Source: Deltaproteobacteria bacterium (GTDB lineage Bacteria; Myxococcota_A; UBA9042; DTJE01). From it: a stretch of 64,000 bases of DNA. The notes under the pieces are model-generated. The model made no database searches, was not told the DNA's origin, and saw only the letters and a list, made by a program, of their open reading frames with translations. Position 1 is the first letter of the stretch, and the number at the start of each line of letters is the position of its first letter. This document shows positions 46,128 to 63,660 of this stretch, one piece after another. Location: the NCBI GenBank assembly GCA_029547805.1, contig JAKPOP010000010.1, positions 521,675 through 585,674 of the forward strand, given 5' to 3'. The position numbers and the translations under genes were made by a program.

Positions 46128-47159
46128 GTGAGCAGGATCCTGGACCTCGTGGATGCCGCCGACCCGGCCGTCATCGCGGTGGTCGGATGCGGCAAGAACA
46201 CGGGCAAGACGACCACGCTGAACGCCCTGATCCAGGGATGCACGGACCGAGGGGAGCGGGTCGGGATCCTCTCGATCGGGATCGACGGAGAGGAGGCGGA
46301 CTTCTGGCTGGGGGTCCCGAAACCCCGCGTCCTGGCGCCAGCCGGCACGCTGCTGGCCACCGCCGAGGAGGCCCTGCGGGCCGGCACGGCCAGGAGCCGC
46401 GTGCTGGAAGGCACCGGAGGACGCACCCTGCTAGGGGAACTGGTCATCGGCGAGGTGGTCGAGGCAGGGACCGTGCTGCTGGCGGGGGTGCGGTCCCGGC
46501 GGGACCTGGCCGGGGCGGCATCCCGGATGCGCCGGCTCGGAGCCCGGCGGGTCTTCCTGGACGGCGCGTGGCAGCGGACGATGGCCGCCGACCCCCGGGT
46601 CGCCGACGCGGTGATCCTGGCCACCGGGGCCGTGCTGGGACGCACCTGTGAGGAGGTGGCGGCCCGGACCCGGGAGGTGCTGGACCGGCTGATGCTGCCG
46701 ATGACCGACCGGGAGGATCTCCGGCGGGCAGCCCGGCGGGAGACCGGGGACCCGGAGGAATCCGACGAGTCCCTGGAGGCCACCCTGGAACCGGTGACGG
46801 ACCGGAATCCCCGGAAGGCCGCGGCCCCCGGGACCATCGAGGGCCCGGACCTGGCGCCAGGGGTCGCCGTGACCGGCGCCCTGACGGTGGACCGGATGGC
46901 CGCGCTGGCCCAGAGGGTCGGGACCCCAGGAGAGGTCGTCGCCAGGGACCCCACGAGGGTCTTTCTGGGCCCCCCGGACCTGGATCGGTGGCGGCGACGG
47001 GGCATCGTCGTCCGGGTCGCGGACCGGGCCCCGGTGCTCGGAGTCACCGTGAACCCCTACAGCGTGCTGGGGTGGACCCTGCCCGCCGCCGACCTGCGGG
47101 AGGCCGTCGCCCGGGTCGCCGCCCCGATCCCGGCCCTGGTGCTGGACCCGCCGACGTGA
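46128..47159 (+). CDS. kamB: P-loop protein of the lysine aminomutase operon (KamB-like)
   Basis: A 343-residue soluble protein that begins with a nucleotide-binding loop at residues 20-30 (GCGKNTGKTTT). It lies 15 bp upstream of kamD. In known lysine-fermentation clusters, proteins called KamB and KamC precede kamDE and act as a reactivating system for the B12-dependent 5,6-aminomutase, and this gene's position fits KamB. The sequence assignment rests mostly on context and the P-loop, and no KamC (MutS-like ATPase) is in the window. GTG at 46128 follows GGGAGG. A possible promoter has TTGCGG at 46081-46086 and TAGGAT at 46105-46110, 18 bases apart. Confidence 0.6.
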   Translation: MSRILDLVDAADPAVIAVVGCGKNTGKTTTLNALIQGCTDRGERVGILSIGIDGEEADFWLGVPKPRVLAPAGTLLATAEEALRAGTARSRVLEGTGGRTLLGELVIGEVVEAGTVLLAGVRSRRDLAGAASRMRRLGARRVFLDGAWQRTMAADPRVADAVILATGAVLGRTCEEVAARTREVLDRLMLPMTDREDLRRAARRETGDPEESDESLEATLEPVTDRNPRKAAAPGTIEGPDLAPGVAVTGALTVDRMAALAQRVGTPGEVVARDPTRVFLGPPDLDRWRRRGIVVRVADRAPVLGVTVNPYSVLGWTLPAADLREAVARVAAPIPALVLDPPT

Positions 47160-47174
47160 AAGGGGGCATGACCG

Positions 47175-48746
47175 ATGAGGAACCTGCTGGACCTGGACCC
47201 GACCGTGATCGAGGAGTGCCGCCGGCTCGCGGCGGAGATCGCCCGGGAGGTGACGGGCTTTGCCAGGGCCCGGACCACCACCTCCATCGAGCGGGCCACG
47301 CTCCGGTGGATGGGCGTGGAGGGGGCCGACCCCGAGGGCGTGCCGCTGGTCAACCGGGTCGTCGAGGAGGCACGACAGGCCGGCGCCCTGGGCCTGGGCA
47401 TCGCCATCCCCTTCGCCGGGGCGATGGTGCGCAGCGGCCTGTCCCCCCAGGAGGCGGCGCAGGCCATCGCCGATGGCAGGCTGTCGCTGGATCGCCCCCC
47501 CGAGTCTCTGGTGCCAAAGTGCCGGTCCCTGGCCCGGGACCTGGCGGAGGCGGGGGCCCGGCGGGTCCAGGAGACGGTCCGGCAGCGAGAGCAGTTGATC
47601 CGGGACCTGGGAGAAGGGCCCCATCCCCTGCTCTATGTCATCGTGGCCTCGGGGAACATCTACGAGGACACGCTCCAGGCCAAGGTCTGCGTCCAGGCCG
47701 GGGCCCAGGTGATTGCGGTGATCCGGAGCACCGCCCAGAGCCTGCTCGACTACATCCCCGAGGGGGCCACGACCGAGGGCTACGGGGGCACCTACGCCAC
47801 CCAGATGAACTTCCGGATCATGCGCCAGGCGCTGGACGAGGCATCCCGGACCCACGGGCGCTACGTCCGGCTCTGCAACTACGCCTCGGGCCTCTGCATG
47901 CCCGAGATGTCAGCCCTGGGGGCCCTGGAGCGGCTGGACGTGATGCTCAACGACGCCCTCTACGGGATCCTGTTCCGGGACATCAACATGCAGCGGACGC
48001 TGACGGACCAGGCCTTCAGCCGCCGGATCTCGGCCGCCGCCGGCATCATCATCAACACCGGCGAGGACAACTACCTGACCACCGCCGATGCCTTCGAGGC
48101 CGGCCACACGGTGCTGGCGTCGGAGTTCATCAACGAGCAGATCGGGCTCCGATGCGGCCTGCGGCCCGAGCAACTGGGGCTGGGCCACGCGATGCAGATG
48201 AATCCCTGGCAAGAGGACATGCTGCTGTGGGAGATCGCCCAGGCCCAACTGGTCCGGGAGGTCTTCCCCCGGTCGCCCATCAAGTACATGCCGCCGACCC
48301 GGTACATGACCGGAGACATCTTCCGGGGCCACGTCCAGGACGCCCTCTTCAATCTGGTCAGCGTCTGGACCGGCCAGGGGATTCACCTGCTGGGCATGAT
48401 GACCGAGGCGATGCACACCCCCCACGTCCATGACCGGGTACTGGCGCTGGAGTCGGCCCGGATGATCCAGCAGGCGGCCCGACACCTGGAGGAGGAGGTT
48501 CGATTCCAGCCTGACGGGCGCATCCAGCGTCGGGCCCGGGAGGTGCTGGATCGGGCCGAGGCCCTGCTGCGTCAGGTCCGGGACCGGGGGCTCTTCCAGG
48601 CCCTGGCCGAGGGGGTCTTCGCCGACATCCCTCGGTCCCCGGAGGGCGGCCGGGGGCTCGACGGAGTGGCCCTCCGGGAGCCGGACTACGAGAACCCGGT
48701 GGAGGAGGTCCTCGACCGGATGACCGATCAGGAGGGCGACCGATGA
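47175..48746 (+). CDS. kamD: D-lysine 5,6-aminomutase alpha subunit
   Basis: Catalytic TIM-barrel subunit that, with KamE, converts D-lysine (or L-beta-lysine) to 2,5-diaminohexanoate (3,5-diaminohexanoate) using adenosylcobalamin and PLP, an early step of lysine fermentation. Length of 523 residues suits the family. Characteristic blocks include VIVASGNIYEDTLQAK, GGTYATQMNFRIMRQAL and MHTPHVHDR. ATG at 47175. Its stop overlaps kamE (ATGA). The preceding KamB-like gene and following kamE form one operon. Confidence 0.92.
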   Translation: MRNLLDLDPTVIEECRRLAAEIAREVTGFARARTTTSIERATLRWMGVEGADPEGVPLVNRVVEEARQAGALGLGIAIPFAGAMVRSGLSPQEAAQAIADGRLSLDRPPESLVPKCRSLARDLAEAGARRVQETVRQREQLIRDLGEGPHPLLYVIVASGNIYEDTLQAKVCVQAGAQVIAVIRSTAQSLLDYIPEGATTEGYGGTYATQMNFRIMRQALDEASRTHGRYVRLCNYASGLCMPEMSALGALERLDVMLNDALYGILFRDINMQRTLTDQAFSRRISAAAGIIINTGEDNYLTTADAFEAGHTVLASEFINEQIGLRCGLRPEQLGLGHAMQMNPWQEDMLLWEIAQAQLVREVFPRSPIKYMPPTRYMTGDIFRGHVQDALFNLVSVWTGQGIHLLGMMTEAMHTPHVHDRVLALESARMIQQAARHLEEEVRFQPDGRIQRRAREVLDRAEALLRQVRDRGLFQALAEGVFADIPRSPEGGRGLDGVALREPDYENPVEEVLDRMTDQEGDR

Positions 48747-49519
48747 ACCGACCGGAACTGGCCGTCGTGCCCGGCGTGGACCTGCAGCAGGTCCGCCCCT
48801 ACGGGGACACCCTGGGGGACGGGGTCGTGCAGGTCTCCTTCTCCCTGCCCCTTCCGGCCTGCCCGGAGGCCGAGGAGGCCGCCCGGCAACTGGCCCTGCG
48901 GATGGGACTGGAGGAACCCCAGGTGTATCACCGGGCGGACCTGGGCTACGGGTTCTCGTTCTACATCCTCTATGGCCGCTGCCGGCACGCGGTGGACGTC
49001 ACCCGGACCCTGGTGCCCCGGGTCCAGGCCCTGGAGGCCTCCTTCGAGGAGATCAATGAGCGACTGCTGCGAGTCGCCGGGCGTCCCCTCCGGGTCGTCG
49101 GGGCCTGCACCGGGTCCGACGCCCACACGGTGGGAATCGATGCGATCCTGAACATGAAGGGATTTGCCGGGGAGTACGGCCTGGAGCGGTACCCGGCCCT
49201 GAGGGTCCGGAACCTCGGCGCCCAGGTGACCAACGAGCGGCTCCTGCACGAGGTCCAGGCCACGGACGCCGACGTGGTGCTGGTCTCCCAGGTCGTGACC
49301 CAGAAGGACGTCCACCTGTCCAATCTGGCCGAGTGGGTGGACCTGGTGGAGGCGGCAGGCCTCCGGGACCGCCTCCTGATGGCCTGCGGCGGGCCCCGGA
49401 TCCGCCACGAGACGGCCCTGGAACTGGGCTTCGACGCCGGGTTTGGCCCCGGGACCACCCCCCGGCAGGTGGCGGCCTGGATCCTCTCCGAATGGGAACG
49501 ACGCCACCCTCCCGCCTGA
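48743..49519 (+). CDS. kamE: D-lysine 5,6-aminomutase beta subunit (B12-binding)
   Basis: Carries the cobalamin and PLP sites of the lysine aminomutase. After an N-terminal dimerisation domain (about 1-110) comes the Rossmann B12 domain. H128 in DAHTVG is the cobalt-ligand histidine. K139 in LNMKG lies 11 residues later, the same spacing as the PLP lysine and the cobalt histidine of the clostridial enzyme. The 258-residue length is normal. ATG at 48743 overlaps the kamD stop. The usual downstream fermentation genes (kdd, kce, kal) do not follow. Confidence 0.93.
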   Translation: MNRPELAVVPGVDLQQVRPYGDTLGDGVVQVSFSLPLPACPEAEEAARQLALRMGLEEPQVYHRADLGYGFSFYILYGRCRHAVDVTRTLVPRVQALEASFEEINERLLRVAGRPLRVVGACTGSDAHTVGIDAILNMKGFAGEYGLERYPALRVRNLGAQVTNERLLHEVQATDADVVLVSQVVTQKDVHLSNLAEWVDLVEAAGLRDRLLMACGGPRIRHETALELGFDAGFGPGTTPRQVAAWILSEWERRHPPA

Positions 49520-49572
49520 TCCTGTTGTTTTCGTTATATTTTCCTGAATCTAGAGCAACCATTGTTTTCTGG

Positions 49573-49601
49573 TTGACTTTCCCCGATGTCCCCAGTATCG
49601 T
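49573..49601 (+). promoter_or_regulatory. Promoter for small Cys-containing protein
   Basis: TTGACT at 49573-49578, a 17-base spacer, and TATCGT at 49596-49601, in an AT-rich stretch (about 49525-49640) that contrasts with the surrounding DNA. GGGAGG precedes the ATG at 49649. Confidence 0.6.
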
Positions 49602-49648
49602 GTTTTCCAGGACCATAAAGGTCCGATTTTGCGACCAGGGAGGAAGCC

Positions 49649-49858
49649 ATGCGATTCACCTCGGCGTCCGAAGACCTCCGGGACCTGGTGGACACCTTTC
49701 ACTGCCGGGCCCGGCGGAAGGAACTGACCCTGGACAAGTGCCTCAACGACTACCTCGAGGCCAACGCCTTCGAGCGCAAGCGGTCGGCCTGCTACCGGTG
49801 CCCCCAGGGCCGCAAGAACCGGGAGGCCTATGCCGGGGCACAGGAGGAAGAGGACTGA
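49649..49858 (+). CDS. Small protein with Cys pair, unknown function
   Basis: A 69-residue charged protein with Cys residues near position 19, a second at about 31, and a CYRC pair near 48-51 (sequence SACYRCPQGRKNR). The CxxC with flanking basic residues suggests a small zinc-binding or nucleic-acid-binding protein, but no family is recognised. It has its own strong promoter and ribosome site, so it is probably a real, regulated gene. Confidence 0.6.
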   Translation: MRFTSASEDLRDLVDTFHCRARRKELTLDKCLNDYLEANAFERKRSACYRCPQGRKNREAYAGAQEEED

Positions 49859-49872
49859 GGAGGCGCACCGGG

Positions 49873-51090
49873 TCACGGGGCCTTCAGCACCGTGGTCACC
49901 GAGGCGCAGATCGGGCCTCCGATATTGAACGACGCCGCGTACCGGGCCCCGGGGACCCGGAGGGCCTCGGGCGTCCGTCCCAGCAACTGCCAGGAATTCC
50001 AGCCGATCATGGCCACGCCGGTGGCCCCGATGGGGTGCCCCTTCGCGATCAGGCCCCCGGAGGTGTTGATGGGCACCTTGCCGCCGTCCACCCGGGCATG
50101 GCCCTCGACGAAGTAGCGGGCCCCCTGGCCCGGCTCCGCCAGGCCCAGGATCTCCACCGCCAGGGCCCCCATGATCCCGAAGCAGTCGTGCACCTCGGCG
50201 ACGCCCACGTCGGCAGCGGTGATGCCAGCCATCCGGTACGCCGCCTGCATCGCCCGGTAGGCCCCCGCCGGGTGCAGCACGTCCCGCCCCCGGGTGGACA
50301 GGGGGTCCGTCGCCTGGCCGAACCCGACCAGTTCCACGGCCCGGGATGCCGGGATCCCCAGCCGGCGCATCCCCTCCTCGGTGGCCAGCACCAGCCCGGC
50401 CCAGCCGTCGGACATCTGGGAGCACTCGAAGGTCTTCAGGGGCAGGCCCTCGGCGATGTAGCGGTTGGGTCCCTCGAGGGTCATCACCTTCTCGACGGTC
50501 ATCTCGACCTTCTGCATCTGGGCCAGGGGGTTGTGGTTTCCGTGGGCATAGAAGGTCACCGCCACGTGGGCCAGCTGCTCCTCGGTGACGCCCCAGTGGG
50601 CCATGTAGGCCGCCTGGACCTCGGCAAAGATGTGGGGGAAGACGAAGACCTTGCCCGGCCGCTCCTCCAGGTGGGAGGCGGTGCCCAGCACCTTGCCGAG
50701 CAGTTTCCCGTCGGCCTTCCCCTCGTCGTCGCGCATCTTCTCGATGCCCACCGCCAGGCCCACGTCGGCCTCGCCCAGCAGCAGCCTCCGGACCACCGTC
50801 AGGACCGCCTGTCCCCCGGAGGCGCAGGCGTTCTCCACCGTCTCGATGGGCTTGCCCGCCATCGCCGGTTCCATCGCCAGCAGACCTGCCAGCAGGGTCT
50901 GGTCCTGGAGCAGCGGCGCCAGCAGGCCCGCCACCGAGGCCGTCTCGACGGCCTCCAGGGGCACGCCCGCCGCCGCCGCGGCCTCCCGGGCCGCCAGCCG
51001 GATGGCCTCCTCGACCTTCATCGCCCCCAGTTTGCCGAAGGGGCTCTGGGCGTATCCCGCCACGAAAACCCGTCGATTTCCCGGCAGCAT
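49873..51090 (-). CDS. SCP2-type thiolase / acetyl-CoA acetyltransferase-like
   Basis: A 405-residue thiolase-fold enzyme. Motifs include the nucleophile region ENACASGGQAV (active Cys), EVHDCFGIMG (catalytic His) and the C-terminal NTSGGLIAKGHPIGATG. These fit the SCP-x/non-classical thiolase subfamily more than the biosynthetic type. It may cleave or condense acyl-CoA in fatty acid or amino acid catabolism; some relatives need a small DUF35 partner, which is not adjacent. ATG at 51090 follows GGGAGGG. It diverges from the vWA gene. Confidence 0.87.
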   Translation of the reverse strand: MLPGNRRVFVAGYAQSPFGKLGAMKVEEAIRLAAREAAAAAGVPLEAVETASVAGLLAPLLQDQTLLAGLLAMEPAMAGKPIETVENACASGGQAVLTVVRRLLLGEADVGLAVGIEKMRDDEGKADGKLLGKVLGTASHLEERPGKVFVFPHIFAEVQAAYMAHWGVTEEQLAHVAVTFYAHGNHNPLAQMQKVEMTVEKVMTLEGPNRYIAEGLPLKTFECSQMSDGWAGLVLATEEGMRRLGIPASRAVELVGFGQATDPLSTRGRDVLHPAGAYRAMQAAYRMAGITAADVGVAEVHDCFGIMGALAVEILGLAEPGQGARYFVEGHARVDGGKVPINTSGGLIAKGHPIGATGVAMIGWNSWQLLGRTPEALRVPGARYAASFNIGGPICASVTTVLKAP

Positions 51091-51170
51091 GCACTCCCTC
51101 CCCGATACCACCCTGCCGGAGAATCCCCCGAACCCGACCCCTTCGTCAAGGGATGCGATCCGATTCCCCA

Positions 51171-51199
51171 TTGACGAAATCCCTCCACCAGGGTTACAA
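51171..51199 (+). promoter_or_regulatory. Promoter for the vWA/tubulin operon
   Basis: TTGACG at 51171-51176, a 17-base spacer, and TTACAA at 51194-51199, about 28 bases before the expected transcript start. GAGGAGG and the ATG at 51234 follow. It is the only clear promoter in the four-gene unit. Confidence 0.65.
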
Positions 51200-51233
51200 C
51201 GACACTCGTTTCCGATTCGAACGAGGAGGTGGA

Positions 51234-53483
51234 ATGCCTTCCGGGGGCCGACCCTGGCGAACCAGCACCTTCTGGGGTGGGCTGGTGCTTTTCCTCCTGC
51301 TGCTCGCCTCGGTGGAATCGAAGGCCATCCCGAAGAAGCACGTGGTGTTTCTGCTGGATCGGTCCGGGTCCATGAAGGCGCAGTGCCGGAAGGGAAGAAT
51401 TCGGGACGTCCAGCGGGTAGCGACCGGCATGCTGAACTGCATCCGGGACGACGGGAACGTCGTGCTGTCCTTCTACCGGTTCGGGGAGAAGGATCGGCAC
51501 CAGGCGATCCTCCAGGGGGTTTCCCCAGGAGAGGCACTGAAGCGACTCCCGGACCTCTTCACGGAAGACTGCGAGCAGTACCAGGATCGTTGGACCTTCA
51601 TCGCCTACTCCACCTTCGAAATCTTCAAGGAACTGCTGGGGCGGCCGACCCTGCAACTGTCGGACCCGCTCCCGGACGAGGCGGGGCTCTTTGCCTTCTA
51701 CGTCTTCACCGACGGTGACGAAGATCCCCACGGATTGGACAATCGCCCCTACGACCGCTGGATGAAGGCCCAGAAGAGTCAAAATCGTGTCGTGCTCTGG
51801 CAGTGGGACGTGACACGTGAAGTGAACGCCCCGTGCCCACCAGGAAATCGGGTGCTGTACATGGTGCAGGTGGGTCCCGCCATTCCTCCGGATTCGGCCC
51901 GGGTGGACCCCGAGCAGGCGCGGCCCTCCGAACCGCTGAAGGTGCAGGTCGGTCGTCGGATCGTCCTCTATGCCCGGGATGTCGTTTCCCCGGAGGACCA
52001 GGACGATCCCAGGATCTGCCGGGGCGACGCCTCGACCGGGGATCCGACCCCCGTCCCGGACTCGCTGCTGCACGTACAGGCCGTCACCGAGTGGGGCATC
52101 GATGGGGCCTCGGGGGCCACACCCGAGTGGATGATCCACGCCCCTCCTCGGGGCCTGCTGGCAACCGGCGACATCGACCGGTCCACCCTGGAACTGGAGA
52201 TCCAGGGAGTTCGGAACGGCGAAACCGAGGTCGTGATCCCCTCGGTCCAGATCCCGGACGGGAAATACCCCATCCGCCTGGACCGGCAGCAGTTGTGCAA
52301 CGAATTGAAGCGGGTCTATCCCTTCAGCGACTTCCTGTTGCCGGAAGAGCCCACCGACTTGCCGGAAGAGGCCACCGACGCCCCCGGTGACAAACCGGGG
52401 CCCCTGCCCCGCCTGGGCAACATCCTGGTCGAGCGGCACCCGACGCACGTGTTCTCGCTGGAGACCCAGAATGGCGTCCCGGCGGACCTGGCGCTGCCGG
52501 ATCTGGTCTCCGATCGGTTCCACCGGTACCGGACCGTCTCCCGGACCTTCCGGATCACCCCCCCGGATCAGGTGCGGGCCGGGTCCGACTGGTCCGTCCA
52601 GGTCTACCGGAAGGGCGAGCCCCTGGCCGACGCCTCGGATTTCGTGGCACTGTCCGGAGAGGCGGGAGTCCGGGGGACGAGCATCTCGATCCCCGCGGGG
52701 AGCGACGTGTCGTTGACCGTTCCCGCAACGGTCCAGCATCCTCTCTGGAGCCTGGTCGGGAGGGGATTTCATCAGGATGTCGGGCCCTACGAGTTGCGAC
52801 TCTGCGTCCAGCCGCGACTGCCCACCGGCGATCCGCACGCGATCCGGGTCGATTGTCGGGATTGCGGTACCGAAAGCCTCTCCCAAGAGGGGGAGGCGTG
52901 GTGCGTTCCCATCCCGGTGCAGGTGAAGGCCCGCCCCCTGTCCTGGCTCGCGCTGGCGGGGCTGTTGTTGGCCCTCCTGGCCGCGCTCCGGGTCGCCTGG
53001 CGCTGGAAGACTCGACCTCGGTTTCCCCCGGGATTGCGGATCGGGCATCCCATCGGGGGGGAGGACCTGCGGAGCGCCCACGAGAAGGGCCTGACGGGCA
53101 TTCTGGCCCTCTATTTCCGCAAGCCGCTCTATCTGGACCTCCAGAGCGATGGGAGCACCGCCTCCTGGCGCAAGTTGCCGGCCTCCCAGGGGAAGCCCGT
53201 CTCGATGAACCTGCTGGGCATTCGACCGAGTCCCCATGGGGGGCAGGCCATCTGGTGCTGGTGCGCGGCACTGGAGTGCGACGAGGACGGCACCGCCGCG
53301 GCCGAGGTCACGGTGGACGGGGCCCCACTGGCCCCGCTGGCCCGGGAGCCGGGAGCCGAGGAGACGAAGGACCTGGTCCCCATCGATCTGAGGGACGTGG
53401 AAATCGATCGGAAGGTGGTGTCCTTGTTTCGGAAATCCTCGAACCGGCGGATCGACTTCTGGATCCGCCAGGAGGAGGCCTGA
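51234..53483 (+). CDS. Membrane-anchored vWA protein, first gene of candidate system
   Basis: A 749-residue membrane protein. A signal peptide or N-terminal helix (about 14-28) is followed by a von Willebrand A domain with the MIDAS motif DRSGSM at residues 42-47, suggesting metal-dependent ligand binding. An Asp/Thr/Pro-rich region follows, then beta-rich segments. A second hydrophobic helix lies at about 569-590, with about 160 residues beyond it that would be cytoplasmic. vWA domains often couple with ATPases in multi-component machines. ATG at 51234 is chosen over an upstream in-frame start because of the promoter and GGAGG. It is separated from the tubulin-like gene by 48 bp. Confidence 0.82.
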   Translation: MPSGGRPWRTSTFWGGLVLFLLLLASVESKAIPKKHVVFLLDRSGSMKAQCRKGRIRDVQRVATGMLNCIRDDGNVVLSFYRFGEKDRHQAILQGVSPGEALKRLPDLFTEDCEQYQDRWTFIAYSTFEIFKELLGRPTLQLSDPLPDEAGLFAFYVFTDGDEDPHGLDNRPYDRWMKAQKSQNRVVLWQWDVTREVNAPCPPGNRVLYMVQVGPAIPPDSARVDPEQARPSEPLKVQVGRRIVLYARDVVSPEDQDDPRICRGDASTGDPTPVPDSLLHVQAVTEWGIDGASGATPEWMIHAPPRGLLATGDIDRSTLELEIQGVRNGETEVVIPSVQIPDGKYPIRLDRQQLCNELKRVYPFSDFLLPEEPTDLPEEATDAPGDKPGPLPRLGNILVERHPTHVFSLETQNGVPADLALPDLVSDRFHRYRTVSRTFRITPPDQVRAGSDWSVQVYRKGEPLADASDFVALSGEAGVRGTSISIPAGSDVSLTVPATVQHPLWSLVGRGFHQDVGPYELRLCVQPRLPTGDPHAIRVDCRDCGTESLSQEGEAWCVPIPVQVKARPLSWLALAGLLLALLAALRVAWRWKTRPRFPPGLRIGHPIGGEDLRSAHEKGLTGILALYFRKPLYLDLQSDGSTASWRKLPASQGKPVSMNLLGIRPSPHGGQAIWCWCAALECDEDGTAAAEVTVDGAPLAPLAREPGAEETKDLVPIDLRDVEIDRKVVSLFRKSSNRRIDFWIRQEEA

Positions 53484-53531
53484 CAGGGAGGGGCCCAAGG
53501 AGTCCTGGCGCAACCTTGAAGGAGGACGGAG

Positions 53532-56500
53532 ATGCCGACGCTGATCATCGGACTGGGGGGCACGGGGACCAAGGTCGTTCGACGGATCCGCAAGCGATGG
53601 GACACTGTCGGAGCGCCGCGCAACACGGCCCTGGCAGTCATTGACGCCCGGTCCCGAGACCCCGAGGAGGGACCCATCGACGGAGTCTTCTTCAACCCGG
53701 TGCGCCCGATCAAGTATCCCGATGCCTTCCGGCAGGCGAAAGAGGAGGTCAAGGCCTGGTGGCCCCACAGTCGGGGCGTGACGGCAGACCCGGACATCGA
53801 CTTCAGCAATGGATGCGGGGCGGTACGGACCAACGGTCGGTTCTTCGCCTACTGGTATTCCCGGGTGATCGCCAAGACCATCGACGATGCCTTCCTGCAC
53901 CTGTCCGCCAAGGGTCTTCCGGGGACCGGCGAGGACGCCCACACCTTCGACGTCTTCCTGGTGGGAAGCCTCGGCAACGGGACCGGCGGGGGCACCTTTC
54001 TGGATGTGGCGACGATCGTGCGGCACAAGATCGCCCCGCGGTGCATGAACCTCCGGTTGATGGGGGTCTTCATCCCGGCGTCGGTCACTCGGGAGAAGTG
54101 GCGGGGAAGCCAGGTGGAGCAGCGAATTGCCGCCGCCGGCTACGCAGCGCTGATCGAGACCCAGTACGAACTGAATCGACGTTCCAGGGACCGACTTCGC
54201 CCGCGGGAACCCTATGTGTTCCGGGGTTGGACCGACGTCGGACACGTGGATTTCTCCACCAGCCCGGGCCGTCCGGACCCGGATCTGCCTCCGCTGGACC
54301 ATGTCTTCATCCTCGACAAGCGGGATACGAACCACCTGGTGGCCCCCTACCTGACCCTGTTGGACATCGCGGCGGAAGGGATCAGCCTCATTGCCGAGGG
54401 GGCCGACGCCGATGCTCGGTTGCTGGACGGTTTCGTCCACGTGCCCAAGTACCTCGGCATCGGGAGTTTCGGCGCCATCCGGCTGACCGTCCCCGCGAGG
54501 GAGATCCAGTCCCACGTCGCAAATGTCCAGGCCTGGCGAGCCGTCGAGGCGGCCCGGGCCCGCGGTCCGCAGGCCTTGGCCCCGTGGAGGCACCTGCTGC
54601 GCGAGGAGACCCCTGACGGGACCGAGGTGTTCCAGAAGGATGACGCATCGCTGGAAGACCATGTGGACTTCTTCCTGGGCAAGGTGCTGCGAGTCCGGGA
54701 GGCAGGGGAGTTCAATCAGGTGCTGGAACGGTTTGGGAACTTCAACAAGGAGCTTCTGGACCAGTTCAACCGGATCATCGCCGGGGTCGACGCACTGACG
54801 GACGCGAAGGCGATCGCCAACAAGGCGACGGAGATCAAGAACTTCATCGACGACCGGCTCGTCGGTCTGGCCGATGCCCGTAGCCGGGTCCTGCAGGAGA
54901 CCTGGGAGCGTCTTCCCCGGGATCCCGAAAAGCCCGTCGATGCCGGGGTCCAGTGGTGGATCAATCGGAAGGTCCAGAACTTCGCCCAGGCGGGGGCCTT
55001 CGGGCTCCTGACCGACTGGCTCGAGGAGATGAAGAAGGCGATCCAGGTCCAACGGGAATCGCTTGCGAGGAACGAACGGAAGAAGTTCCTGGCCAACTCC
55101 GGGCACCGGGATATCGACCTGGGCCGGACGGCCGAGGACCTTCGGAAGGTGGCGGAGCAGTACTTCGCCTGGTTCAAGAAAGGGTGGATGAAGGAACAGA
55201 TCGGGAAGATGAGCGCAGAGGCCCGGAAGAAGGTCGAATACCTGCTGTGGGAGGCGAACATCGTCGCCGCCGAGCGCTTTTTCGACCGGATCCTGGCCCA
55301 TCTGGACACCCTCTGGAAGGGAAGTTCCCAGGCCCTGGAGTTCCTGTCCCATCCCCGGCTGGCCCAGCGCCTGGAAGATGACGCCCACAAGGGCATCGGG
55401 GCGGCTGCCGGAGGCAAGGCCCGGGAGCACCAGGGCCTGAAGGCCGAGTACCTGATGGGCACCGACGAGAGCACCCTCGATCGGATTCTGTCCGACGTGG
55501 AAGCAACCTCCGAAGCCTCTGCGGTCGGGATCCTGGGGGGGATGGGGTCCCAGAACAGGGCCCTCTTGCTGGAGTCCCTGGGCGAGGACTCCCGGGTCCT
55601 CATCGGCGCAGAGACGAAGGGTCGACGTGCCCGAAGGGACCCGGTGGGACTGGTGGACGAGTACCGAAAGGCACTGCTGCACCAGACAACGGAACGGGTG
55701 CGGGACAGGGTGGGTTCCCGGTGTCGGATCGACCTCATCCTGGAACAGGAGGCGATCCAGTCGCTGAACGAGTACTTCCGACTGGTTCACCAGGAGAAGG
55801 ACGCCCCAGATACCACTCCCAGGACCCGCTTCCTCTCGGAACTGAAGGACCAGATCGGAAGCCCGGCAACGGACCAGATCCAGCGGCAGGACTGGCAGAA
55901 TGACCTGGAAACGGCCATGCAACAGGCCGTCGACTACTACATCGCGGGACGACTCCATCGCCTCATCGCCCTGGCGGCGACCCAGTGGAGCCTCGTCTCC
56001 GATCGGGAGAGGCTTGCGGAAATCGTGGACTTCTCCTTCGTGATGCACCATGGCAGCGCCTCTCGCATCCCCCAGGCCATCCAAAAGATCGAGGAGATGG
56101 GACTGGCGGACCAGAGGTCCAACTTCCGCACACAACAGAACGACCTCATGGACCCCCGCCGGGTGGACATCCTGAAGGTCCAGCTGGGAGGATCGGTCGA
56201 GTCCCTGGAGATGCTGGAGGAAATCGATTCCTACCGGCTGGTCATGCGGGAACAGCCCGACTTCAGCCCCCACCTGACGGAGCAGTACCTCCAGATGGGC
56301 CGGAGGTGGAACGAGCAGATGGCCGGTGGTGAGCAGTACCATGGAGCCGCGCTGCTCGCCCTGGCGGTCCACTTCGGACTGGTCCAGGTGGACTCTTCGG
56401 GCAACTACAAGATCGCGAGGGATTTCTCGTACCGGGATGGAGACAAGGCGATCCAGTACGCCGCGAACCGGATTCTCGGGAAGGGGATCGAGGCCGTCTC

Positions 56501-56795
56501 CCGGGATCTGGACGGGACGGAAGAGTGGTACGTCACGTTCAACAAGGCCCTGAGACAGAACCTGTTCAGCCTCGTGAAGGACCGGGCGATCGGGGTTCCC
56601 GGGACCCCGGGGATCGGCTGGAACGGCGCCGCGGACGAACTGCGAAAGGTGGCCGCGGAGATCGATAGGAAGGTCCAGGGAGAGCCGGATACCTCCAAGG
56701 TAGAACTGATGCAGAGACAGATCCGCCAGTTGAATCAGGCCGCGGCGGAACTGGAAGAGATGAAGGGATCTGGCCTCCCGGCCCTGTTCCGCTAG
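53532..56795 (+). CDS. Tubulin-like GTPase (bacterial Tubulin_2 type)
   Basis: A 1087-residue cytoplasmic protein. The N-terminus has GLGGTGTK (residues 7-14), and the tubulin/FtsZ signature appears as GSLGNGTGGGT at residues 145-155. After about residue 300 the sequence is long, charged and helical, consistent with coiled coils. The N-terminal fold matches bacterial tubulin-like (Tubulin_2) proteins, whose function is unknown; it is not FtsZ or TubZ. ATG at 53532 has GGAGG upstream. The gene has 48 bp before it and 29 bp after it, so it is co-transcribed with its neighbours. Polymerisation is possible but unproven. Confidence 0.84.
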   Translation: MPTLIIGLGGTGTKVVRRIRKRWDTVGAPRNTALAVIDARSRDPEEGPIDGVFFNPVRPIKYPDAFRQAKEEVKAWWPHSRGVTADPDIDFSNGCGAVRTNGRFFAYWYSRVIAKTIDDAFLHLSAKGLPGTGEDAHTFDVFLVGSLGNGTGGGTFLDVATIVRHKIAPRCMNLRLMGVFIPASVTREKWRGSQVEQRIAAAGYAALIETQYELNRRSRDRLRPREPYVFRGWTDVGHVDFSTSPGRPDPDLPPLDHVFILDKRDTNHLVAPYLTLLDIAAEGISLIAEGADADARLLDGFVHVPKYLGIGSFGAIRLTVPAREIQSHVANVQAWRAVEAARARGPQALAPWRHLLREETPDGTEVFQKDDASLEDHVDFFLGKVLRVREAGEFNQVLERFGNFNKELLDQFNRIIAGVDALTDAKAIANKATEIKNFIDDRLVGLADARSRVLQETWERLPRDPEKPVDAGVQWWINRKVQNFAQAGAFGLLTDWLEEMKKAIQVQRESLARNERKKFLANSGHRDIDLGRTAEDLRKVAEQYFAWFKKGWMKEQIGKMSAEARKKVEYLLWEANIVAAERFFDRILAHLDTLWKGSSQALEFLSHPRLAQRLEDDAHKGIGAAAGGKAREHQGLKAEYLMGTDESTLDRILSDVEATSEASAVGILGGMGSQNRALLLESLGEDSRVLIGAETKGRRARRDPVGLVDEYRKALLHQTTERVRDRVGSRCRIDLILEQEAIQSLNEYFRLVHQEKDAPDTTPRTRFLSELKDQIGSPATDQIQRQDWQNDLETAMQQAVDYYIAGRLHRLIALAATQWSLVSDRERLAEIVDFSFVMHHGSASRIPQAIQKIEEMGLADQRSNFRTQQNDLMDPRRVDILKVQLGGSVESLEMLEEIDSYRLVMREQPDFSPHLTEQYLQMGRRWNEQMAGGEQYHGAALLALAVHFGLVQVDSSGNYKIARDFSYRDGDKAIQYAANRILGKGIEAVSRDLDGTEEWYVTFNKALRQNLFSLVKDRAIGVPGTPGIGWNGAADELRKVAAEIDRKVQGEPDTSKVELMQRQIRQLNQAAAELEEMKGSGLPALFR

Positions 56796-56824
56796 GCGGG
56801 GCTTCCCGGGGGAAGGATCGTCCG

Positions 56825-59365
56825 ATGAGTCTGCTGGTGCTGCCGATCAACGACCTGGAGGACCTCGAGGACCCGCTGGCCCAGGTGTTCCTGGAGGTCT
56901 CGGCCATCTACGGTACCGAGCAGGCCTCCCGGGCTGCCGATCCCGAGGCCGCCCGTCTGCTGGAGCCTCTGGAGATCCTCTTCCTCGACGGAGACCCCTA
57001 CGACGACATCGCCCTCGCGGGCCCCGCCGGGACCTGCATTGTCCGTCCCGGACGGACCTCCGCCCCTGGAAGCGCCCCCGGGAAAGAGCCGTCAGGGGGC
57101 CGCCAGAAGGACAACCACGAGGCAGCGGCCCGGGAACTCCTGTTCCAGCGCATCACCCGGATGATCCAGCGCATCGGGGAGGTCCCGGCCGGGGAGGAAC
57201 GACAGGGATCGCGTCCCTGTCTGGTGATCGTCCCGGTGCTGCTGCTACGGGAAGGTCCCGATGGCGGGGAGGTCCCGGAGACGACACGGGCCCTGATGAA
57301 CCGGCTGGAAGGCCTGTGGAGGCTCCTGGAGACCCTGCAGCCCCGCCTGACCCAGGGTGGAATGGGTGGCGAGGCTCATCTGGCCGTTGGGGACGTGCGC
57401 CTGATGCCCTGGATGTTCTGTGAACCGGGGTTTCGGGACGACCGGGCCCCGGCGCTGTTCCAGGGCCCCGGAGGGCTGGGCCGAGGCCAGTTGACGCCGC
57501 TCGTCTACGGTGACGTCGCACGGGATGGAACGCGACTGCCCTTCGCTGGCTACGGAAGGAGCCGCCTGCTCACCGACCTCTTGCTCCTGAACGCCCTGTC
57601 GGCGGATCGGGACAGACTCCAGGAGGTCTTCGCGATTCAGTCGGAAGCGAATCGGCGGATGTTCTTTCATTCCCACTCTTCCCTCTTCGAATACCCCCTC
57701 AACGACCTCCTCCGGGAAGGGGTGCTGCACCGGCTGGCGGGCGAGGAACCCGAGACCCGCATGGTCCCGGACCTCACACGACTCGAGGCCCTCTCCCGCC
57801 AGGTCGAGGCGGAATACGAGGACCGGATCCACACCCACCTCGAGGTCCTCCGGAAGGTCCTCGATGCCGAAGTCTTCGAGAGCACCGCGTTCGACTTCCC
57901 CGAGCCGGGGACCGACAGGAATCGTCCTGCGGAACGGCTTCCCAGGGGCGCCGGGGAAATCGACTTCCAGGTTCTCCCCCGCCCGGGGATCCTGGAATCG
58001 CTCTCGGCCAGCCGAATGGCCGAGGATCTCCACGACCAGTGGATCTCGACGATCCGGGACGCCACGGGTCCCTTCCTGGACCGGATGATGGGGGAGGGGC
58101 TCCAAGAGGCCTATGGAACCATCCGGGAACAGACGGCGGAACTGGAACAATGCCTGGTGGAGATGATGGGGCCGGTGAACCGGCACCCTGAGACTCCCCA
58201 GTCGATCCCGGACACCGCCCGGGCGGTGGGACGGATGTTGGGCGTCCTCGATGGCATGGAAGCGGGGTTGCAGGCCATCGGACGGAACCAGGCCGAGGAG
58301 AGGATCGAGGACCCGAAGGACCTGGAGCAGGAGGCCCTGGCCCTCCGGACGGACTGGGTGGACCAGGAGGAGCGGCTGATCCAGGAGGCGGCGACCCTGC
58401 CCGGTCGCGTTGCGACGTTCCTGCAGGTGGTCGGAGCAGGAATCGCGATGTACGGAATCGCCTGGTTGCTGCTGCGTTTCTCGGACCTCCTCAAGGGGAA
58501 TCCCCTCTGGGTCACCTGGGTCACGGCGCTGCCCTGGGCCGGACTGGCGGCCTTCCTGGCCTTCTGGGCCGTCCGAAGTCGAACCCTGGGCTGGGTCCGC
58601 CGGTGCCGGGCCTCGGCCGACCAGATGCGAACCCAGGCCAACCAGCTGATGGGGAGGCTGGTCCGGATTCTGAACAGTCGGATCCGCCGCATCAAGCATG
58701 CCGCCAGCGAGGACCTTCGCCGCTCGATGCGGGCCGTTCGGGACCGCCTCCAGACCGAGATCGCCGGACTCGGGACGTTGATCCAGGACGAACTGGCATC
58801 CCGCGCAACCCGAAGGACGGCTCTTGAAGCCATGGAGAAGGAATTCCCACCGGTCTCGACCGGGAGGTTCCACTGGCGGTTCCCGGGCACCCTGGACGTT
58901 TACCTGGATGAGGGCGAGTTCCAGGCCGACCTGGCCAACTTGCTGACTCCGGTCGTGCGCCTGCGGGAGATGCCCGGCGTGGTCACGCTGGATGACTACC
59001 GAAAACTCCTGAGCGCGAGGGTGGATGCCGCGGTGGGCTCCGCGGAGACCATCGTGGGAGAGAGGCGGCTGGAAGGGAACCAGATGCTTCGCCAGGCGGT
59101 CGAACTGGGCAGCCGGAGGAACCTGCTCCCCCCCGGTGGGGATGAGCATTCGGCCTCCACCTTTGTGGTCGCCGGGTCTCTGCTCCGTGACCGCCTGGAT
59201 GTGGAGGAGGCCATCGGGCACCTGTCCTCAAGGCCACAGATCCTGTCAGGTGCGGTCGCCCGGGCCCTCCCCCGGGAGATGGCGATCACCGTGACCGTGC
59301 TGGGGGTCGTCGGAACGGTCGGAAAACCAGGAAGGATCGGAGGGACGCCGGAGGTCCGACAGTGA
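56825..59365 (+). CDS. Two-TM coiled-coil protein, unknown, part of candidate system
   Basis: An 846-residue protein with no family I recognise. The first 500 residues are mostly soluble, with a Leu/Glu/Arg-rich helical part at about 320-500. Two membrane helices lie at about 531-551 and 560-582. They are followed by a charged helical stretch (about 590-700) likely to form coiled coil, and a C-terminal domain. Both flanks would be on the same side of the membrane, probably cytoplasmic. ATG at 56825 lies 29 bp after the tubulin gene; the stop overlaps the GTG of the next gene. Confidence 0.75.
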   Translation: MSLLVLPINDLEDLEDPLAQVFLEVSAIYGTEQASRAADPEAARLLEPLEILFLDGDPYDDIALAGPAGTCIVRPGRTSAPGSAPGKEPSGGRQKDNHEAAARELLFQRITRMIQRIGEVPAGEERQGSRPCLVIVPVLLLREGPDGGEVPETTRALMNRLEGLWRLLETLQPRLTQGGMGGEAHLAVGDVRLMPWMFCEPGFRDDRAPALFQGPGGLGRGQLTPLVYGDVARDGTRLPFAGYGRSRLLTDLLLLNALSADRDRLQEVFAIQSEANRRMFFHSHSSLFEYPLNDLLREGVLHRLAGEEPETRMVPDLTRLEALSRQVEAEYEDRIHTHLEVLRKVLDAEVFESTAFDFPEPGTDRNRPAERLPRGAGEIDFQVLPRPGILESLSASRMAEDLHDQWISTIRDATGPFLDRMMGEGLQEAYGTIREQTAELEQCLVEMMGPVNRHPETPQSIPDTARAVGRMLGVLDGMEAGLQAIGRNQAEERIEDPKDLEQEALALRTDWVDQEERLIQEAATLPGRVATFLQVVGAGIAMYGIAWLLLRFSDLLKGNPLWVTWVTALPWAGLAAFLAFWAVRSRTLGWVRRCRASADQMRTQANQLMGRLVRILNSRIRRIKHAASEDLRRSMRAVRDRLQTEIAGLGTLIQDELASRATRRTALEAMEKEFPPVSTGRFHWRFPGTLDVYLDEGEFQADLANLLTPVVRLREMPGVVTLDDYRKLLSARVDAAVGSAETIVGERRLEGNQMLRQAVELGSRRNLLPPGGDEHSASTFVVAGSLLRDRLDVEEAIGHLSSRPQILSGAVARALPREMAITVTVLGVVGTVGKPGRIGGTPEVRQ

Positions 59366-62300
59366 GCGAGGAGGTCCCCATTTCCGAGGCCCGGTCTTCC
59401 GCCGAGCCTGCGCGGGAATCCACGGAGGCCCGCCTCCGCCGCAGGTTCGCCTGGAAGGTGGGGTTGGCCGTGGCCGGCCTGGTCGTGCTGGCCCTCGGCG
59501 GACTGCTGGCCCTGCTGTTCCTGCTGAACGTCAAGGCGGTCTTCCGCTATCTGGACCTGGACCACGTCACGGCCTGGCTCCGGGACGTGCTGCCGGAGGG
59601 TTGGGGTCCGGAAGACGGCTTTGAACTGGTCGTCGCCACCTTGCTGAATCTGGCGGTATTCGTCCTTTCGTTGGTCATCGCCCTGTTCTCGGGCCTGCTC
59701 GCGGGACGGCAGGGGGCAAGGCAAGGGGAATTCAGCCCCTTTCGGGCCTCGGTCATCTCCCTGACCAGGAATTCCGGTTGGGCTGGGCTGTGGATCCTCC
59801 TCGCAGGGGTCCTGGTCGGGGTCCTCGGGTCCGTCTTCTTGCTGCAATACGCCGCATTCCCGTTCCTGTTCCAGATCCTGCCGGGTCTATCGGGCATTGC
59901 GATGGCCCTGGTGGCCCTGGGCCTGGCAACGATGATCCGGCTGGAATACCTGCTGCCTCCCAGGCGCGACCCCGAGGTGCCGGCAGGCCCCGACGAGGAC
60001 GAGGAGAAGGCGCGCCTGACCGGCAGAGAACTGTTGGAGCGCCTGCGGTCCTCTCCGATCTATCGCCGACAGGTGCTGTTCGATCGATGGCTGCCCGGGG
60101 AGGTCCGGACCTACGAGGAGGGGGATGGTCTGGGCCCGCTGCTCGAGCGGTTCCCTCGAATGCGTGGAATTCTCGCCCACACCGGCATCCGGAGGCTTTC
60201 CTTCGATCAGGCCTGCGCGATGCGGGAGATCCTGCAGTCGGAGGCCGGTCGGGGTTCCAGGAGCATCGACTACGTGCTGGTGGGATGGCCCGGGTCGGGT
60301 CGCACGACCCTGGCCAACCTGCTCTCCCTCGGTGCGGTGCTGCACCGGGAGGGAGCCATGTATTGCATCTCCGCCGAGAGTCCCGGCCACTCGCTGGACC
60401 CTGACGCATCGGGACAGAAGAAGGCGGACCGGGGCACCCGCCACCCCAGTCTGCAACTGGGGCAGTGGCTCAAGGCGGCGGGCCTCTTGACCCAGGTCCG
60501 GGTCCAGCATGCCTATGACGACCCGGGCTCGCCCCGGGACCTCCGCCTGGGGGAACGGCCGGACATGATCTTCACCGACGTGCGGATGCTGTCCGACGCG
60601 GTGTTGAAGCGCGTGGGAGGTGACGGACGGGAACTCATCGCCCGCCTGCGATACGTGGTGATCGACCACCCCGATCGCCTCCCTCGGGCCGACCTGATCC
60701 GGCTGCGCCTGGCCATCGCCCGACTGCGGATGACCGCCGAGATGTTCGGCCGCGCCCCCACCTTCATCCTGCTGCTCCCGCACCTGAACAACGCGATGGA
60801 ACTCGCGAAGTTCCTCCTGAACAACGAGGATGTCCCGTTCCACAAGTTCGCTTCCTGGCCGGACCCGGCCCACCTGGTGGGATGGATGCCTCCGCTGGAG
60901 TTGCTGGACCCGGAGGAACAGGAGCGCCCGGTCCTGACCAGGGCCCGGTTCGTCGAGGAGGCCATCGCCCTGATGTCAGAAATCGGCTACATCTCCAACC
61001 GCTTGCGGGAACAGGAGGGAAAGAAGGACCTCCGGGTCGCAGTGGTGGATGCCAAGCCCTTGCTCGGACCCGAGGCCCGGGAGTTCATCCGGATGCGGAT
61101 CCCGGAACTGCTTGCCCGGGACCTGCCTCCAGACCGACGGGAACAGGAGATCCACCTGGACTGGACCTACCTGGGGTCCCGGGAGATCGCCCTGGACCGG
61201 AGGGCCCACTACGACCTGATCGTGGTCATGGGCGTTGGCGGCAACCCCGCCCACCTGCTTTCCTGCCTGCGACCCGCCCTGGCATCCGAGGGGGCCATCT
61301 TCCTCGTGGGGGACTCCTCCCCCGAGGACCAGGAGACCCTGTGGACGATCATGGACGAGAACTGGACCCCATCCCGGGTCCTGGAACGCCTGGAGATCCC
61401 GTCGTTCCTGATCCCCGACCACTCCGATGCGGTCATCGCCCACGAGATGGCCATGCTGTTCGAGGACTTCTACCTCAGGCCCCTTCCCGGCGACCGCCTG
61501 CTGGAAGTCTTCCCCAGCGGGATCACGAAGATCCTGCTCGCGGACTGGCAGAGAATGCGACGGATCGAGGAGGTCTCGGTCTTCGTGCAGACCCGACCGG
61601 GACTCCGTCCCTCGATCCGGCCCTACTGGAGGCGACAGGACCCGACATTCAGCGGGGAGCAGTTTGCGGTTCCCTGGGGCTGCTCCACGAGGAGGCTCCT
61701 CCAGGTCCGCGATGAAACGGCCCACACCCGTGCCCGGAGACGCCCCCACCTCGATCCGGCCGTGGATCATGATCGGGTCTTCATCGACCTGTTTCCCCGG
61801 GCCATGCGCCGCTACCCACCGGCCACCGTGATGGTCAGCAATGTCCGGCGATGGGAACTCTCCCGGGAGGACCAGGAGAAGCAGCAGCGCACGGCGGTGA
61901 TCGAGGGGGAGATCAGTTTCAGCCAGCCCGAGGAGTCGGTGGCGATCCGGGTGGATCGCCGCAAGCCCCGGTTCGACAGTCGGCTGCTGGGGGAGTGCCC
62001 CCTGGACCCGGATCAGCCGCCCCGGTTCTCCGAAGAGGTCCAGAGGGAGTTGCGCAAGAACGCCATCTTCCCGTTCCTGCGTCCGTTGGGCGGCGAGGAG
62101 TCGCTCCCCGAGATCCCGTATGGACTGATGCTGGTGGACTCCCTGGCGCTGCCGGGTGTCGGGGGCGCAGCGACCCCGGACATGCTGGTCCGGGGCGGAA
62201 TCTGGCAGTGCCGGATCCAGGAGACATTGCGCGACCTGGTGCGAACCGACGACCGGCTGGTGGAAGAACCTGCCCAGGTGATTCACGAGGACCTGCCGCA

Positions 62301-63660
62301 TGCCCTGAAGATCCAGAGGGAGTTCTTCACGGTGGGGGTCTCCCTGTTCCTGGTTCCCTCGCCGGGCGCCAACACCGAGGGGCTTCCCCTGGAGGAGCGG
62401 CCCGCATGGCACGGATTCGCGCGAGCCTTCGAGGGGGTCCTGTCCTCGCGGTACACGAACTTCCGGGACGAGTTGCGGGTGATCCTGGTCCCGAACGCCC
62501 CTGGCGACGAACACACCGAGTCCACCTGTCCCAATGGCTACCGCGTCTTGATCCATGGTCTCTTTTCGGACGAGAGGGCCTCCCGTGGCCTCGGACAGGT
62601 GCTGTACGCGGACGTGCTGGGCGACCTCCTCCGGCAGACGCTCCGGCGGCTGGAGCGTTGCGACTGCGACGATGGGTGTTCCGCGTGTTGTGGTGGGCTT
62701 GGAACCATTCCCGTCCACCTCCTCCCCCACCAGGGGTTCGAGCCCCAGGATGCCGTCAGCCGGAAGGGAGCCTACCTGCTGACCTGCGCGGCGCTGGGCA
62801 AGAAGCCGGACTGGAGGCGCTTCTACGAGGGGCAGCGACGACGCCGGCAACTGGGGGGAGACGAGGAGGGCCCCTCGGCCACCGATGCCGACATGCAGCG
62901 GCTGCTGGACGAGGTCCTGGGCCTGCCCGACGAGAAGGGTGTCATGCGGGGAGGACTGTGGCAGGAACTGTTCGGAGCCCCCCCGCACCCTTCCGCGGAG
63001 GCCGGAACCCCATCGACCGAGGCTCCCGGTTCCACCGCATGGATGGTGCTCCGAACGTCCTTCCTCGCTCCCGCTCAATGGAGCTCCACCCTGCCGGACA
63101 ACGCAGTTGGGGTGTACCTTCCCGGGTCCAATCAGGTCGAGGTCCGTCCCGGCGAATCCGAGGACACCGTGCGAGAGACGCTGGTTCACGAGTACTGCCA
63201 CAACTGGCAATTCCAGTCTCGGGAATTCGATCTGGCGCGCCTCCGGGAGTCCCGAGAGGCCTCCCAGTTCTTCCAGGGCAAGCTGGTGATCGAGGGCCAT
63301 GCCACCTGGGCGGACCACCAGTTCCGGTTCTCCAGGGGCCTGGGTGCCTCCTATACCCGAGGCAACGATAGACGGCCCTGGAACGAGTACAAGGTCGGCT
63401 ATCTCCTCTTCGAGGGTCTCGAGAAGGCCGTGGGCCAGCAGGGACTGTTTGCGTGGATCCGCCCGCTTCCGCCCGACGGATCTCCCCCGGTGATTCGTTC
63501 CCGAAATCCCCGGCTGAAGCCAGGTTTCACCCTGACCGACCTCCTGAAGGCCCTGGACCTCTATCAGGTGGCCCGAAGCGGGCGCTACACCAGCTTTGAC
63601 GTTCCCGAGGACTCGGGAGCATCGGGTCCGGATCCCGCTTCCGACGGAGGTCCGGGGTGA
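59362..63660 (+). CDS. Membrane pseudo-helicase (DUF1998/MrfA-like) with HExxH metallopeptidase domain
   Basis: A 1432-residue protein. Four hydrophobic segments lie at about 30-53, 93-117, 136-158 and 166-192. A superfamily-2 helicase-like region follows: a Q-motif-like SFDQAC, motif I GWPGSGRTT (308-316) with Arg at the usual Lys (R314), motif II IDHPD (434-438) in place of DEVH, and LLPH (471-474) in place of the SAT motif. Motif VI is also lost (CLRPAL near 635-640). An intact DUF1998-type Cys cluster follows at C1100, C1102, C1106 and C1109, as in MrfA, Hrq1 and DISARM DrmB. The C-terminus has HEYCH at 1276-1280 and the later Glu at 1311 (IEGHA), resembling DA1-like zinc peptidases. GTG at 59362 overlaps the upstream stop. 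Confidence 0.8.
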   Translation: MSEEVPISEARSSAEPARESTEARLRRRFAWKVGLAVAGLVVLALGGLLALLFLLNVKAVFRYLDLDHVTAWLRDVLPEGWGPEDGFELVVATLLNLAVFVLSLVIALFSGLLAGRQGARQGEFSPFRASVISLTRNSGWAGLWILLAGVLVGVLGSVFLLQYAAFPFLFQILPGLSGIAMALVALGLATMIRLEYLLPPRRDPEVPAGPDEDEEKARLTGRELLERLRSSPIYRRQVLFDRWLPGEVRTYEEGDGLGPLLERFPRMRGILAHTGIRRLSFDQACAMREILQSEAGRGSRSIDYVLVGWPGSGRTTLANLLSLGAVLHREGAMYCISAESPGHSLDPDASGQKKADRGTRHPSLQLGQWLKAAGLLTQVRVQHAYDDPGSPRDLRLGERPDMIFTDVRMLSDAVLKRVGGDGRELIARLRYVVIDHPDRLPRADLIRLRLAIARLRMTAEMFGRAPTFILLLPHLNNAMELAKFLLNNEDVPFHKFASWPDPAHLVGWMPPLELLDPEEQERPVLTRARFVEEAIALMSEIGYISNRLREQEGKKDLRVAVVDAKPLLGPEAREFIRMRIPELLARDLPPDRREQEIHLDWTYLGSREIALDRRAHYDLIVVMGVGGNPAHLLSCLRPALASEGAIFLVGDSSPEDQETLWTIMDENWTPSRVLERLEIPSFLIPDHSDAVIAHEMAMLFEDFYLRPLPGDRLLEVFPSGITKILLADWQRMRRIEEVSVFVQTRPGLRPSIRPYWRRQDPTFSGEQFAVPWGCSTRRLLQVRDETAHTRARRRPHLDPAVDHDRVFIDLFPRAMRRYPPATVMVSNVRRWELSREDQEKQQRTAVIEGEISFSQPEESVAIRVDRRKPRFDSRLLGECPLDPDQPPRFSEEVQRELRKNAIFPFLRPLGGEESLPEIPYGLMLVDSLALPGVGGAATPDMLVRGGIWQCRIQETLRDLVRTDDRLVEEPAQVIHEDLPHALKIQREFFTVGVSLFLVPSPGANTEGLPLEERPAWHGFARAFEGVLSSRYTNFRDELRVILVPNAPGDEHTESTCPNGYRVLIHGLFSDERASRGLGQVLYADVLGDLLRQTLRRLERCDCDDGCSACCGGLGTIPVHLLPHQGFEPQDAVSRKGAYLLTCAALGKKPDWRRFYEGQRRRRQLGGDEEGPSATDADMQRLLDEVLGLPDEKGVMRGGLWQELFGAPPHPSAEAGTPSTEAPGSTAWMVLRTSFLAPAQWSSTLPDNAVGVYLPGSNQVEVRPGESEDTVRETLVHEYCHNWQFQSREFDLARLRESREASQFFQGKLVIEGHATWADHQFRFSRGLGASYTRGNDRRPWNEYKVGYLLFEGLEKAVGQQGLFAWIRPLPPDGSPPVIRSRNPRLKPGFTLTDLLKALDLYQVARSGRYTSFDVPEDSGASGPDPASDGGPG

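Follow-up and report, generated by a model that had tools for sequence, protein, structure and literature searches.

A predicted membrane-anchored relative of MrfA/YprA helicases as a recurrent operon partner of vWA and Tubulin_2 proteins

The operon described here lies in a window of 64,000 nucleotides from a Deltaproteobacteria bacterium of the lineage Myxococcota_A (assembly GCA_029547805.1, contig JAKPOP010000010.1, positions 521,675 to 585,674), and it encodes a vWA protein, a Tubulin_2 protein, a protein with two predicted transmembrane (TM) segments and a membrane-anchored relative of the MrfA/YprA helicases. Open reading frame (ORF) calling in the window gave four frames, all on the plus strand, at 51234-53483 (gene 1), 53532-56795 (gene 2), 56825-59365 (gene 3) and 59362-63660 (gene 4). 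Gaps of exactly 48 base pairs (bp) and 29 bp separate genes 1 and 2 and genes 2 and 3, respectively, and genes 3 and 4 overlap by 4 bases. Gene 1, which ends at 53483, could start at 51153 or 51234; the ATG at 51234 is favoured by a Shine-Dalgarno sequence (GAGGAGGT, 51223-51230) and by a signal-peptide-like N-terminus. A first-pass annotation of this DNA had proposed the same gaps and overlap, which are exact in the ORF coordinates, and had described a membrane vWA protein, a tubulin-like protein, a two-TM coiled-coil protein and a membrane protein joining a degenerate DUF1998 helicase to an HExxH domain, all of which are borne out by the features given below. Its promoter was not recovered, as a scan upstream of the operon called none; inspection of the sequence finds just a weak promoter-like TTGACG-N18-TACAAC (51171-51200, plus strand), below the scan threshold.

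Gene 1 encodes a vWA protein of 749 amino acids (aa) with the metal ion-dependent adhesion site (MIDAS) motif DRSGSM at 51357-51374. Homologues were found in G121 (E=5e-27) and G075 (E~1e-15), two genomes from other families of the same phylum, while the vWA models of Pfam stayed below threshold, none reaching its cut-off. The predicted topology consists of a signal-peptide-like start, the vWA domain, one TM segment (52944-53000) and a tail, with the vWA domain predicted outside the inner membrane and the tail in the cytoplasm. In G075, the vWA ORF is the first of its operon (L034, 3-2600) and carries an OmpA peptidoglycan-binding domain (E 1e-20), in agreement with the OmpA association reported for such genes in 2010 (PMC2875224). 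Gene 3 encodes 846 aa with two adjacent TM segments predicted in mid-protein (58412-58474 and 58511-58573), putatively large cytoplasmic parts and a coiled-coil-like C-terminus. It has homologues in G075 (E=1e-7) and G121 (E=8e-7), and most relative loci hold a 2-TM protein at this place. Searching the PDB with the sequences of genes 1 and 3 returned zero matches.

Gene 2 (1087 aa) begins with a Tubulin_2 domain (PF13809, E=1.9e-22, 80.5 bits against a curated cut-off of 27), the family also called FtsZl1, and is predicted to be a cytoplasmic tubulin-fold protein. The motifs GLGGTGT (53550-53570) and GSLGNGTGGG (53964-53993) are present, and the GTP-binding loop GGGTG(S/T)G occurs as the variant GNGTGGG, of which the G, T and G are invariant across relatives. 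In the AlphaFold2 model (mean predicted local distance difference test score, pLDDT, 64), the tubulin domain is followed by a long helical region at residues ~320-815, and the best Foldseek matches were CetZ, FtsZ, tubulin and TubZ, though weak (E=4e-3, probability 1.0). A search of the window tubulin against plasmids gave no match.

Gene 4 (1432 aa) sets the operon apart. Four TM segments are predicted in its N-terminal part (59452-59934), and a multi-TM N-terminus is present in most of its relatives. Pfam recognises an MZB/DUF1998 domain (PF09369, E=4.7e-5), with the zinc cysteines CDCDDGCSACC at 62659-62691; a weak match to a DECH helicase was also obtained. A PDB search with the single sequence found nothing, whereas a profile of 30 family members matched MrfA/YprA with E=2e-38 over positions 274-988, the next match being at 2e-4. 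This homology extends over the two RecA domains as well as DUF1998/MZB, and the four best Foldseek matches to an AlphaFold2 model of residues 233-1432 were all MrfA chains (6znp, E=9e-18); the mean pLDDT of the model is 56 and its peptidase part is unreliable. From profile and model together, the gene 4 family is best read as descending from the MrfA/YprA (DUF1998) helicases. The catalytic motifs of MrfA (TPTASGKT, VIDELH and QQAGRAGR) are, however, degraded in the family. Alignment with relatives places a Walker A motif with K changed to R at 60283-60309 (GWPGSGRTT) and a motif II with DExH changed to DHPD at 60658-60681 (VIDHPDRL, against VIDELH in MrfA). In the window, G075 and G121, Walker A reads GWPGSGR or GWPGAGR, IDHPDRL is invariant and motif VI is lost; the zinc cysteines are preserved in all three, and the cysteine cluster of MrfA aligns with that of the family. 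An MZB match (E<=0.05) was obtained for 21 and a DEAD match for 12 of 30 fourth proteins. An active superfamily 2 helicase was considered and is unlikely for the proteins of the window, G075 and G121, as each lacks the Walker A GKT, the DExH and motif VI. Across some 46 members, GK[ST] is kept in about 11 and DExH in only one, and most members are therefore probably dead ATPases.

The C-terminus of gene 4 carries the metallopeptidase-like motifs HEYCH and EGHATW (63187-63309), detected through a sub-threshold match to DUF6782 (E=4.1e-5, 23.4 bits against a cut-off of 27). G121 has HEYAH and EGHARW, and G075 has HAFVH and EGHALW, thereby losing the catalytic Glu. Decay of the domain, as G075 suggested, was ruled out by the intact motifs of G121. 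The domain is limited to these three genomes and is intact in two of them; most other relatives have no recognisable peptidase domain, and two bear C-terminal transglutaminase-like domains instead. From these comparisons, the HExxH domain is a subtype feature and no hallmark of the whole system, so that the first-pass annotation was right about its presence in gene 4 and overstated it as a part of the system. The same distribution bears on a transport or proteolysis device, in which a vWA/tubulin scaffold would deliver substrates for cleavage by the peptidase of gene 4 or feed them into an exported pathway. The motifs kept in G121, the transglutaminase-like domains and the transport/signalling idea of a reviewer of PMC2875224 speak for such a device, but with the peptidase missing from most relatives and its catalytic residue lost in G075, it is an improbable account of the operon.

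Both G075 (tubulin E~1e-37; gene 4 E=2e-157 at 33% identity) and G121 (tubulin E=7e-51; gene 4 E=7e-122) contain alignable counterparts of the whole set in unchanged order, with gene 4 relatives 33-37% identical, and the four genes are therefore a real, recurring bacterial operon and no chance grouping. When genes 3 and 4 served as single-sequence queries against 53 near genomes, no close relative emerged, and a contig scan with the gene 4 sequence gave nothing useful; these failures reflect sequence divergence, and profiles resolved the matter. Relative loci were collected by a scan with a narrower tubulin alignment, a 16-row version being too diverse, which yielded 80 named loci in Myxococcota, Acidobacteriota and Gammaproteobacteria. 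Of these loci, 48 had more than 6 kb of sequence beyond the tubulin gene (the window included), and at 38 of them a gene 4 homologue lies downstream on the same strand; G075 was missed here by a distance filter. Since choosing these loci by tubulin similarity could inflate the linkage, a phylum-wide sample was added: PF13809 occurs in 31 of its 114 genomes, and gene 4 follows Tubulin_2 at 15 of the 24 loci where the sequence runs far enough past the tubulin gene. Linkage across the two partly overlapping samples is thus 63-79%. Distance matrices of the tubulin correlate with those of gene 4 (r=0.93) and gene 3 (0.80), with n=37 and permutation p=0.001, and some of this correlation can come from shared phylogeny alone. 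The pseudo-helicase is a recurrent partner of Tubulin_2 across the three groups, and the gene order, which the first-pass annotation had proposed to compare in distant lineages, is kept across three phyla. Fortuitous neighbours or a decaying operon might be suspected from the degraded helicase motifs and from the lack of close relatives of genes 3 and 4 in the single-sequence searches. Against this stand the intact frames, an order conserved in three families, the invariant DHPD and zinc motifs and the rate of linkage, which make such an explanation very improbable.

The loci vary around this core. In gammaproteobacterial and acidobacterial loci, the vWA genes often number two or three and are accompanied by an additional gene of ~800 aa; at L100-L103, L112, L119 and L132, this fifth gene follows gene 4 and has no predicted TM segment, and in some of them several vWA genes precede the tubulin. 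On a plasmid of Azospirillum ramasamyi (L154, 12480-25291), a tubulin-like gene stands in one row with genes for a 1-TM protein of 710 aa, a 3-TM protein of 1118 aa and a vWA protein; the candidate for gene 4 on this plasmid shows only weak similarity (hhalign probability 55%) and was left uncounted. A plasmid of Azospirillum sp. TSA2s (L157) has caspase-family and OmpA genes beside its tubulin-like gene, and L036 (4416-8249) encodes a predicted fusion of a RodA/FtsW-like flippase and a penicillin-binding transpeptidase near a partial Tubulin_2 gene.

The surroundings of the operon give a mixed picture of its role, which the first-pass annotation had taken to be sensing or defence. Support for defence is indirect and comes from two settings. 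To the left of the operon, a kamDE (lysine aminomutase-like) and thiolase block (46128-51090) is conserved across the family and is 88% identical between the window and G001, a sister genome of the same genus. In G001, the block is followed by an island with a Mokosh-like superfamily 1 helicase, a TerY-like vWA protein, PP2C and a kinase; its carbamate kinase gene lies on a separate contig, preceded by CRISPR III-B (Cmr) genes, a reverse transcriptase (RT)-PrimPol and another vWA-Tubulin_2 set. The G001 loci (L145, 5077-19391, and L147/L148, on contigs C92 and C20) include an RT fused to a TOTE-type primase. We infer that the two contigs form one defence island at the site of the window operon. 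The second setting is three Thermaceae plasmids (L153, L155 and L156) with the order vWA, tubulin-like gene, hypothetical gene of ~680 aa and brxL; two of the three also have genes for DNA methyltransferase and helicase in the vicinity.

Several observations weigh against a defence role. The two G001 contigs are unjoined, and the set of that genome (vWA-Tubulin_2-kinase-vWA-transglutaminase) is another subtype without the pseudo-helicase; gene 4 is likewise absent from the Thermaceae loci, as tested with the Meiothermus set. In the window itself, the operon sits among metabolic genes, between thiolase and carbamate kinase genes on the minus strand. The 93 genes flanking four-gene loci elsewhere are mostly housekeeping genes, and the PADLOC matches listed for these flanks are nearly all to protein-kinase models, so that the enrichment near defence genes suggested for checking was not found at the loci from Myxococcota, Acidobacteriota and Gammaproteobacteria. 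Domain searches of the operon proteins turned up no nuclease, and a dead helicase makes direct DNA targeting less likely.

The predicted signal peptide, vWA domain and TM segment of gene 1, the two TM segments of gene 3 and the four of gene 4 are consistent with the envelope-spanning set envisaged earlier. The operon may thus encode a single apparatus that spans the envelope and has the FtsZl1 (Tubulin_2)/vWA module as its basis, with a conflict or immune response as its likeliest role, a judgement that we put at an even chance. This role is favoured because of the same-site defence island of G001, the vWA-tubulin-brxL plasmids of Thermaceae and the defence roles of the YprA family, relatives of which have a central place in DISARM, Dpd and Druantia (PMC12458937). 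In such an apparatus, the vWA domain outside the membrane would bind an envelope or invader-derived ligand, and the tubulin protein could assemble at the membrane in a GTP-dependent manner and relay the signal. Genes 3 and 4 may hold the tubulin at the membrane as couplers, with the pseudo-helicase acting as a ligand- or nucleic-acid-binding switch and no motor, and the C-terminal peptidase could be a subtype-specific output cleaving cytoplasmic targets. More tentatively, it could be speculated that this is a distinct YprA-based immune machine, in which a former helicase, now membrane-bound and catalytically dead, serves as sensor or adaptor and is linked both to a tubulin filament and to a vWA domain in the periplasm, so that envelope invasion would set off assembly of the cytoskeleton and also, in certain lineages, proteolysis.

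The main rival is a membrane-remodelling or vesicle machine, in which the TM proteins would connect filaments of the tubulin at the inner membrane to periplasmic vWA proteins, with no immune role. Remodelling has already been proposed for this family (PMC2875224), every partner except the tubulin is a membrane protein, and the OmpA domain in the G075 operon and the mostly housekeeping flanks also fit. However, the presence of the family in about a quarter of the sampled genomes is patchy and its divergence strong, the same-site island and the plasmids provide defence contexts, and a direct link to membrane shaping is absent. Remodelling is therefore possible, although on balance doubtful. The proposed apparatus also bears on an objection raised in 2010 by a reviewer of PMC2875224, who held that a tubulin in the cytoplasm cannot be part of a complex with vWA proteins in the periplasm. 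Gene 1 with its single membrane pass, the conserved gene 3 protein with two TM segments and the pseudo-helicase with four would provide a tangible physical connection through the membrane.

Compared with known systems, the operon is closest to the vWA and Tubulin_2 (FtsZl1) pair published in 2010 by Makarova and Koonin as a membrane-remodelling candidate (PMC2875224), for whose tubulins no tested role was found in the literature since. Both place Tubulin_2 beside a membrane vWA protein and uncharacterised TM proteins, and both show the OmpA association, whereas the main text of that paper names no helicase-derived partner. Its uncharacterised families A1-A2 and B1-B9, given in the main text without description, may include genes 3 and 4, and an earlier unnamed sighting of these is possible. 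Kaur et al. (2020; PMC7159879) list vWA/tubulin sets among conflict systems. Shared features are a tubulin fused to a helical or coiled-coil region and a membrane vWA protein with an extracellular domain, and the vWA-type systems of that paper are reported from myxobacteria and Lamprocystis, both of them lineages in which the four-gene set also occurs. Its tubulin systems, in contrast, are built around GAP1-N2 GTPases and belong to Firmicutes and Actinobacteria, and Pfam finds neither such a GTPase nor fibronectin type III (FNIII) repeats in the four window proteins. The Thermaceae plasmid cluster shares a tubulin-like gene directly after vWA and differs in a third gene without TM segments and in BrxL in place of the MrfA-like gene 4. 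For the four window proteins, PADLOC assigned no defence system (best match E 0.19) and NCBIfam no system, and none of the partner genes of DISARM, Druantia, ARMADA or Dpd (methyltransferase, nuclease, DrmB-type etc.) lies in the operon. An earlier description of a helicase relative as a conserved tubulin/vWA partner was not found in a search with limited preprint coverage and without supplements. The first-pass annotation, which knew of no described system with this set, is thus right for the exact four genes as far as found, but the vWA and Tubulin_2 pair has been known since 2010. With the YprA/MrfA helicases of DISARM, Dpd, Druantia, ARMADA, BRIGADE and TALON (PMC12458937), gene 4 shares the RecA1-RecA2-DUF1998/MZB architecture, homologous over 700 positions, and differs in its predicted membrane anchor, its degraded ATPase motifs and the lack of a detected nuclease. 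It extends the family by a degraded branch with a membrane anchor; this 2025 survey is silent in its text on such a branch and on tubulin, vWA or transmembrane members. Novelty therefore appears to rest on gene 4, the operon being a new version of the vWA-FtsZl1 system that possibly connects tubulin-based machinery with the YprA immune family, a link that suggests a testable immune role.
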